In this document: positions 24,943 to 54,458 of the stretch, one piece after another
Numbering within the stretch: position 1 is the first letter of the stretch
How the letters are laid out: each line of letters starts with the position of its first letter
Assembly (NCBI GenBank): GCA_016187925.1
Contig: JACPIS010000039.1
Coordinates: forward strand, 1 to 64,000
Direction of reading: 5' to 3'
Origin: Opitutia bacterium
Lineage (GTDB): Bacteria; Verrucomicrobiota; Verrucomicrobiia; Opitutales; Opitutaceae
Length of the DNA stretch: 64,000 nucleotides
Program-made: the position numbers and the translations under genes
Notes under the pieces: model-generated
The model's input: the letters and a program-made list of their open reading frames with translations, nothing else
Told to the model about the DNA's origin: nothing
The model's database searches: none

Positions 24943-25008
24943 GGGTAGGGCGAATCCTCCGGATGAGCCGTGCCCCAGAGCGGCTCGTCGGGGACGACTC
25001 GCCCTACC
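24943..25008. repeat. GGTAGGGCGA palindromic element, free copy
   Basis: The arms begin GGGTAGGGCGAATCCTCC and end in the inverted GACGACTCGCCCTACC. The minus strand matches, apart from the loop and a few bases, the segment inside rlmN at 53759-53824. Confidence 0.8.
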
Positions 25009-53147: not shown

Positions 53148-53282
53148 ACCGCGTCGGTTCGGCTGATCGCCGCGCTCCCCGGGCGCAGCCGGGCGGAGTG
53201 TAGACCGGCCCGGCTGAGGCCGTTGGTGGAGGGGACGGACCGGGCTTGGCTTTGGGGCGGATTCGCTCCTACGTTCGCGCCG

Positions 53283-54458
53283 GTGAGCGCGCCCCACACT
53301 AATTTCTACGACCTGCCCCGCACTGAACTGCTGGCGCGGGCGGCCCGCTGGGGTTTCCCGACGGTCCACGCAGCGCGGCTGTGGGCCTACGTTTATCTGG
53401 AGGGCGTCGAAGACTGGCGCGCGATGCCGGAGCTGCCCGCGCGCTTTCTCACCAAGGCCGAGCAGGAGCTGCGTTTCCCCCGGCTCGCCACCGCCGCCGA
53501 GTCGCACAGCGCCGACGGCTTTACCCGCAAATACCTGCTTTCCCTCGCCGACGGCCGCCGAATCGAAACCGTGCTCATGCGCTACACCGGCCGGGTGACG
53601 GCGTGCATCAGCAGCCAGGTCGGTTGCGCCATGGGCTGCGTGTTCTGCGCCACCGGCCAGATGGGCTACGTCCGCCATCTCACGCCGGGCGAGATCGTCG
53701 CGCAGGCGATGCATGTCGACGCCGTGCTGCGCGACACGGCCGGAAGCGCGCCGCCCAAGGTAGGGCGAGTCGTCCCCGACGAGCCGAAACGCTCGGCGGT
53801 TCATCCGGAGGATTCGCCCAACCCAATACCGCCCTTGGCCAGACCATCCAGCCCCTCCCCGCACGAGCGCCACGAACGGTTGCGCAACATCGTGCTCATG
53901 GGCATGGGCGAACCGTTGCACAACTACGACGCCGTGATGACTGCCATCGACATCCTGCGCGATCCCAGCGGCCTCGCGCTTGGGGCGAAGAAAATCACCC
54001 TCAGCACCGTCGGCGTTGTGCCGGGCATCATCCGGCTGGCCGACGAGCAGCGCCCCGTCCATCTCGCCGTCTCCCTGCACGGCGCCACGCAGGAGGAGCG
54101 CGCCGCGCTCGTGCCCGCGGCGAAGAAGTGGCCGCTCGACGAACTCATGGCCGCCTGCCGCTACTACATCGCGAAGCAGCAGCGCCGCATCTTCTACGAG
54201 TGGACGCTGATCGAGGGGAAAAACGACACTCCCGGGAACGCGCACGCCGTCGGCCGCCTGCTGCGCGGCCAGGAGGCGCAGGTAAACCTCATCCCGCTCA
54301 ACCCGACCGCCGGCTTCGCGGGCGAGCCCACCGGCCGGGACGCGGCGAAGAAATTCCAGTCGGTCCTCGCCGGTTACGGGCTGCCCAGCACCATCCGCCA
54401 GCGTCGCGGCATCGACATCGCCGCCGGCTGCGGCCAGCTCGCCGTGGCGAAAAAATAG
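53283..54458 (+). CDS. rlmN: 23S rRNA (adenine2503-C2)-methyltransferase RlmN
   Basis: A 391-residue radical SAM methyltransferase acting on A2503 of 23S rRNA and A37 of some tRNAs. The cluster motif is CAMGCVFC; the segments GMGEPLHNYD, ISTVG-type LSTVGVVPGI and the late catalytic Cys region (AAGCGQLAV) are present. GTG 53283 is chosen; GTG 53223 would add 20 weakly plausible residues. About 45 extra residues (roughly 157-201) include a 66-base copy of the GGTAGGGCGA element, giving GRVVPDEPKRSAVHPEDS, and are absent from the usual family length of 350-380. Confidence 0.94.
   Translation: MSAPHTNFYDLPRTELLARAARWGFPTVHAARLWAYVYLEGVEDWRAMPELPARFLTKAEQELRFPRLATAAESHSADGFTRKYLLSLADGRRIETVLMRYTGRVTACISSQVGCAMGCVFCATGQMGYVRHLTPGEIVAQAMHVDAVLRDTAGSAPPKVGRVVPDEPKRSAVHPEDSPNPIPPLARPSSPSPHERHERLRNIVLMGMGEPLHNYDAVMTAIDILRDPSGLALGAKKITLSTVGVVPGIIRLADEQRPVHLAVSLHGATQEERAALVPAAKKWPLDELMAACRYYIAKQQRRIFYEWTLIEGKNDTPGNAHAVGRLLRGQEAQVNLIPLNPTAGFAGEPTGRDAAKKFQSVLAGYGLPSTIRQRRGIDIAAGCGQLAVAKK
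53759..53824 (+). repeat. GGTAGGGCGA palindromic element inserted in frame in rlmN
   Basis: Begins GGTAGGGCGAGTCGTCCC and ends GGAGGATTCGCCCAACCC. Except for the loop and a few positions it equals the minus strand of the intergenic copy at 24943-25008. Confidence 0.85.

Follow-up and report, generated by a model that had tools for sequence, protein, structure and literature searches.

How does a palindromic element come to lie in frame within a conserved RNA-modification gene, and what happens to the gene that carries it? The question is raised by the rlmN gene in a 64,000-nucleotide stretch of an Opitutaceae contig, JACPIS010000039.1 (hereafter the window), in which two copies of the element occur. 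Rickettsia palindromic elements, which are palindromes found in frame within conserved genes, are a precedent for this behavior. We find that the element inside rlmN is a REPIN of the GTAG kind, and we hold with considerable confidence that it landed in a permissive loop of RlmN, where it would be translated with the enzyme still working, while insertions elsewhere in the gene would have been removed.

A GTAG-type REPIN in the reading frame of rlmN

The element is an inverted pair of REPs (Table 1), and a second, intact pair of the same kind lies elsewhere in the window. The reverse complement of 53759-53823 is identical to 24944-25008 at 54 of 65 positions without gaps, while none of 50 shuffled windows gave more than 38, which rules out a chance similarity and agrees with the first-pass annotation, which had described two inverted copies and had ended the rlmN one at 53824. 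The arms are the best-matching part of the two copies and the spacer is the worst. Each half of the intact copy, GTAGGGCGAGTCGTCCCCGACGAGCC and GTAGGGCGAATCCTCCGGATGAGCC, consists of GTAG and a short interrupted palindrome. In the rlmN copy, REP 1 keeps GTAG, and REP 2, the 3′ REP, carries the near variant GTTG in place of GTAG and GAACC in place of GAGCC.

Table 1. Locations of the element, its parts, its host gene and related features of the same genome
Feature	Location	Strand	Description
REPIN	53759..53823	+	two inverted GTAG-type REPs, 65 bp, inside rlmN
REP 1, GTAGGGCGAGTCGTCCCCGACGAGCC	53760..53785	+	intact
Spacer between both REPs	53786..53797	.	mostly not common to the 24944 copy
REP 2, GTTGGGCGAATCCTCCGGATGAACC	53798..53822	-	decayed; predicted fold differs from the REP stem
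Second REPIN, same kind	24944..25008	.	intact; probably between genes
rlmN open reading frame	53223..54458	+	411 aa from TTG (putative start); TIGR00048
Second RlmN	L229:1899-3008		no repeat in loop; TIGR00048 386.4 bits
RAYT	L015:1369-1863		NF047646 E 7.8e-26, 90.7 bits (cut-off 80)

An imperfect palindrome beside GTAG is found in REP 1, in the whole element and in the 24944 copy. The whole rlmN element has a predicted DNA fold of -20.0 kcal/mol (z -3.5), and the intact copy folds with a z of -5.3. As a single strand, REP 1 forms a stem with internal unpaired bases behind GTAG, which is itself unpaired, with a z of only -1.5; no REP stem is obtained on folding REP 2 of the rlmN copy (z +0.3). 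The RNA of the element has a strong predicted hairpin (-37.2 kcal/mol, z -4.4), which might slow translation. Neither a target-site duplication nor a target motif was seen by eye at the element. Three Rfam matches in 53500-54100, with E values up to 1, fell far below their gathering scores, and a known structured RNA was rejected.

The 24944 copy probably lies between genes, judging from the open frames, the longest of which to span it has 11 codons on one side. In contrast to the extragenic position expected of REPs and REPINs, the rlmN copy is in frame within a gene, but intragenic exceptions are described in the available text of PMC3733652, so this position does not exclude the element from their number.

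The open frame of rlmN runs through the element with no stop, and the element encodes residues about 179-201. The product scores 306.9 bits against TIGR00048 (cut-off 290), and the solved structures nearest to the predicted protein are those of RlmN (6fz6, 3rf9, 5hr6), with the structure model described below matching 6fz6, 4pl1, 3rf9 and 5hr7, so that both score and predicted fold identify it as RlmN; the CAMGCVFC, MGMGEP and GCGQL stretches are intact. In a structure model built from 44 sequences (mean pLDDT 85), pLDDT falls below 50 only at residues 1-21 and 175-201, and the insert loop lies between helix 155-175 and strand 222-225. Translational bypassing need not be invoked and was set aside, since no stop interrupts the frame within the element. 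The genome also has a second RlmN, which outscores the element-bearing one on TIGR00048 (386 versus 307 bits), and the element-bearing copy could therefore be failing without harm. Thus, what had been called an essential-type RNA modification gene is a conserved RNA-modification gene, but this copy need not be essential, as a second, insert-free RlmN exists.

The size of the insert is less simple than was first described. The window's loop exceeds that of its congeners L029 and L030, where no repeat can be recognised, by 27 residues (81 nt). Of the 66-base in-frame insert proposed initially, the in-frame element therefore stands, at 65 bp, but a clean insertion of 66 bases is unsupported. In another genome with an insert of this kind, G006 (locus L018), the loop differs by 23 residues (69 nt) from that of its tree sister L030, and the element is 65 bp.

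Copies, a candidate transposase and other host genes in the same genome

If the element belongs to the REP/REPIN type, it should be dispersed in many copies. Indeed, we count 117 occurrences of its 10-base core, GGTAGGGCGA, in the 3,995,137-base genome, compared to 43 for the reversed control, and, genome-wide, 9 exact inverted pairs whose cores are separated by 20-50 bases, compared to none for the control; the earlier description of a dispersed palindromic element is thus upheld. The REP body is present in 67 of the 84 core clusters examined (among 100 of the 117 cores). Inside the window, the core with at most one mismatch occurs 8 times with 4.34 expected, a number that 8 of 100 shuffles also reached and that is within chance.

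The Y1-transposase family has eight matches in the genome. One of them, at L015, is a REP-associated tyrosine transposase (RAYT) that carries a DHVH motif and has inverted REPs on either side, at 1359 and 1886. Its identity is supported by the NCBIfam match over the cut-off, together with a transposase model match under the cut-off; the long frame around it has no Pfam family. The flanking REPs share their core with the rlmN REPs but have a different stem (GTTCTCCGAAC), so that the L015 RAYT as the mover of the rlmN element is only a guess. The REPINs of Pseudomonas fluorescens SBW25 are reportedly tied to a RAYT, and this genome likewise carries one.

The rlmN copy is not the only one within a gene. 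There are 67 candidate frames across REPs, and Pfam was run on 30 of these; a Pfam family was found in 12 and none in 18. Among the 18 are alternative frames at sites where the other frame did have a family. One of the 12, a histidine kinase at L205, was left out because the core that it spans was judged to be chance, and the L205 cluster, itself one of the 67 with a REP body, was judged likewise. In-frame REPs are present in at least 11 Pfam-supported genes besides rlmN, namely purL, a carboxyl transferase, mfd, uvrA (two elements), adenine deaminase, a YjeF/Carb_kinase protein, alaS, an FMN-dependent dehydrogenase, a SpoU methylase, tatD and nuoG. The REPINs are read in different frames, giving GRASRPRRA in uvrA versus VGRVVPDEP in rlmN. 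These genes, together with the uvrA loop, rule out rlmN as the sole target.

We compared the loops of uvrA and alaS at 30 loci each. By eye, repeat-like inserts are present in the uvrA loop of 6 of the 30 loci (L380, L381, L382, L385, L396 and L400), with a possible further one in L389. The uvrA loop of the window's genome (L380; also L052) holds a REPIN, and that of L381 one GTAG repeat of a different kind; in these two congeners the different GTAG repeats are preceded by identical bases, AAAG. A GTAG-like pair is found in L382, 7-bp tandem repeats in L385 and other repeats in L396 and L400. The alaS gene (L198) has one REP, in a naturally variable loop; no other GTAG-repeat peptides were recognised in a protein alignment of 29 relatives. 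The alaS peptides of L355 and L366 resemble 7-bp-repeat peptides at the protein level.

The RlmN loop across the Opitutaceae

An rlmN orthologue with an E value of 1e-70 or better is present in at least 155 of 200 family genomes. From 160 rlmN loci, removal of 5 that were unparsed (L045, L073, L099, L157, L170) and of 10 duplicate fetches left 145 distinct genes, one of which (L046) is from another family; five further listed orthologues are not in this set. None of the 145 loops contains a stop, and the span from GQMG to MGMGEP ranges from 43 to 119 residues. The comparison of RlmN lengths that had been suggested shows the following: from FCAT to GMGEP the window's loop has 91 residues, compared to 47-75 in 23 nearer records (L270-L292) and 44-55 in 56 parsed records further away (L293-L349), and loop length hardly varies outside the near relatives. 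A longer loop with a SPHxRHE-like end is common to part of the family. Loop alignment, tree and loop lengths in relatives led us to reject the idea that the insert is an ancient, conserved segment of RlmN. One gene, L021 (G005), has a single TGA in its RlmN match, outside the loop and near the N-terminal end of the match, which is probably upstream of the true start.

A repeat is present in the RlmN loop of 47 of the 145 genes by labels assigned by eye and of 43 by an automatic rule, which on 1,980 shuffled loops reported a palindrome in 3.5%, a GTAG unit in 2.3% and a 7-bp repeat in 0.1%; by eye, 98 orthologues have no labelled repeat. The two sets differ in that L035, L077 and L185 were dropped by eye as GC-rich chance, L112 and five double-labelled loci were moved to the GTAG kinds, and L026, L027, L114, L129, L093, L107 and L143 were added. 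The by-eye labels, which are those used on the tree, fall into three types. Type A comprises GTAG repeats, of the window's kind in 5 genes (G000, G006, G059, G187 and G085) and of other kinds in 9 (8 and 1), some of which are degenerate. Type B comprises AT-centred palindromes such as TGTCACGTAATACGTGACA in 25 genes, read as CHVIRD, CNLLGY and similar peptides, and type C comprises 7-bp tandem repeats in 8 genes.

All five inserts of the window's kind are in the same reading frame; four are 65 bp and one is 56 bp. Exact REPINs of this kind occur in 34 of the 200 genomes, including, elsewhere in the genome, all five that carry the insert in rlmN. Thus, the insert was not found in genera lacking the element, an observation that the first-pass annotation had considered damaging to its claim.

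The other two types have features of their own. Copies of a 19-bp AT-centred palindrome, TGTNACNTAWTANGTNACA, are scattered through 96 of the 200 family genomes, with up to 82 per genome and 0 for the reversed control (examples are L121, L122, L147, L151, L243, L261 and L266), and are sometimes paired, 53-55 bp apart (L243, L261, L266). Of the 25 genomes whose RlmN loop is of type B, 23 are among these 96, although for some the RlmN copy itself is counted. The loop of L026 has a degenerate AT-centred palindrome. A literature search that was weak on subscription journals found no paper on four forms of the 17-base core of this palindrome. The 7-bp tandem repeats, of which many are of the CTCAACT kind, are read in frame within the RlmN loop of L024, L113, L133, L138, L158 and others. 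In L024 (about 1864-2058 of the reverse complement), an inverted copy of the native RLRNVVLM codons immediately precedes those codons, which results in an 18-bp perfect hairpin within the gene.

To place these repeats on a phylogeny, we used a quick tree of the proteins minus the loop, on which 54 of 142 inner branches are poorly supported and changes may be gains or losses. The numbers of changes required, with the minimum forced by supported branches in brackets, are 5 (3) for the window's kind, 6 (5) for the larger of the other GTAG kinds, 18 (8) for type B and 8 (3) for type C, and over all label types we count 34. The genes of G000 and G006 are apart on the tree, the latter grouping with L029 and L030, both of which are without the insert, and so the window's kind most likely entered the RlmN loop more than once.

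The repeats are also largely confined to the loop. Under a strict rule, type B palindromes are found in the loop of 21 of the 145 genes (10,677 bases) versus outside it in 2 (144,954 bases), one of the two being GC-rich and probably chance; GTAG cores under a simple rule are in the loop of 9 genes versus outside it in 4. This confinement fits removal of insertions in the folded core, but alone does not separate removal from targeting. A permissive loop is favored over targeting because unrelated repeat kinds are mixed in the RlmN loop and because a similar picture is seen at the uvrA loop.

Origin of the insert and what it may mean

The explanation that we prefer runs as follows. The REPIN, a miniature mobile element presumably mobilised by a RAYT of this genome, would have inserted into the stretch of rlmN that encodes the loop between helix 155-175 and strand 222-225. 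Since the frame is open across it, the element is most likely read through as protein, which would add about 22 residues (VGRVVPDEPKRSAVHPEDSPN and neighbours); in the structure model these form a disordered loop that may leave the enzyme working. Insertions elsewhere in rlmN would be purged by selection and those in the loop would survive, which would explain why unrelated repeats have gathered in the loop many times in the family.

Other explanations fit part of the evidence. The many separate changes at one loop, and the different GTAG repeats behind the same AAAG in uvrA of L380 and L381, might be expected if a RAYT or another enzyme recognised a feature of DNA or structure at this stretch of rlmN. 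However, the repeat kinds are unrelated, 7-bp tandem repeats need no transposase, insert positions vary within the RlmN loop, and the uvrA loop likewise gathers varied inserts, all of which make a targeted hot spot distinctly unlikely. It is also unlikely that the insert has been retained because the new loop alters RlmN function or expression, through the hairpin, slower translation or new contacts. The strong predicted RNA hairpin would suit such a role, and the SPHxRHE-like longer loop in part of the family indicates that longer loops can be kept, but close relatives differ in the sequence and length of the insert, no repeat was labelled in most orthologues (98 of 145), and the rlmN copy has a decaying REP.

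The second RlmN, with its higher score and no insert, could do the work while the element-bearing copy decays. Yet the latter has an open frame and intact CAMGCVFC, MGMGEP and GCGQL stretches, and its orthologue is widely retained (at least 155 of the 200 genomes of the family, E 1e-70); we therefore regard a decaying gene as very unlikely. A REPIN copy wrongly joined into rlmN during assembly would be extremely improbable: the assembly is in 48 contigs and repeats are a usual source of false joins, but the same frame is read on either side of the element, the decayed REP distinguishes the rlmN copy from all 9 exact REPINs, and four other genomes have the same type of insert in the same loop.

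The permissive-loop explanation accords with what has been published on related repeats. In the available text of Di Nocera et al. (2013, PMC3733652), GTAG and CGTC repeats are reported inside genes, most of the GTAG ones in Opitutus terrae, which is itself a member of the Opitutaceae and thus of the same family as the window's organism. Dimers or groups that encode 20-30 residues make up more than half of these intragenic inserts. Both uvrA genes of O. terrae carry repeats, and two Xanthomonas species have different REPs at nearly the same position in recB; the authors suggest that loops and linkers may tolerate REPs. The GTAG-superfamily REPs described there are like the rlmN element in their GTAG end, palindromic body, inverted pairs, multiple copies, REP-flanked transposase genes and in-frame copies. 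In contrast to our observations, the same text does not name rlmN as a host, nor does it describe a family in which repeats of several unrelated kinds occupy one loop. As here, the REP doublet is the replicative unit of the REPINs of SBW25, but in the text available to us their copies were counted in extragenic space (Bertels and Rainey 2011, PMC3116915), while the rlmN copy is in a coding region.

The Rickettsia palindromic elements, also cited in the available part of PMC3733652, resemble the rlmN element only in behavior, as palindromes in frame in a conserved gene. RPE-4 and RPE-6 are matched there to CGTC repeats, with no transposase association in its Table 1, unlike the rlmN element, which is of the GTAG kind in a RAYT-bearing genome. 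The Rickettsia precedent is thus a fair analogy but not the closest known system, which, from the text of that paper at hand, is the GTAG REP/REPIN with its transposase. A literature search, with most subscription journals outside its reach, found no paper on RlmN with palindromic elements, and none on repetitive extragenic palindromic sequences in Opitutus under that name. The inside of a gene is an unusual but published kind of place for a REPIN; what we did not see described is that repeats of several kinds have again and again come to occupy the same RlmN loop.

A broader possibility, which we consider rather unlikely, is that the RlmN loop in Opitutaceae is a family-wide landing pad at which unrelated repeats have been made into protein many times (GTAG REPINs, 7-bp tandem repeats and the 19-bp AT-centred palindrome, which seems to be undescribed), with some of the loops then selected. 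If so, mobile palindromes would be a source of new protein sequence, and should some of the inserts prove to be selected, they would be a direct case of it. The RlmN loops document, from natural insertions, where foreign sequence can be accommodated in a well-studied RNA methyltransferase. They suggest that REP traffic in Opitutaceae regularly ends in proteins, and that annotation and protein-length comparisons should expect REP-derived inserts.
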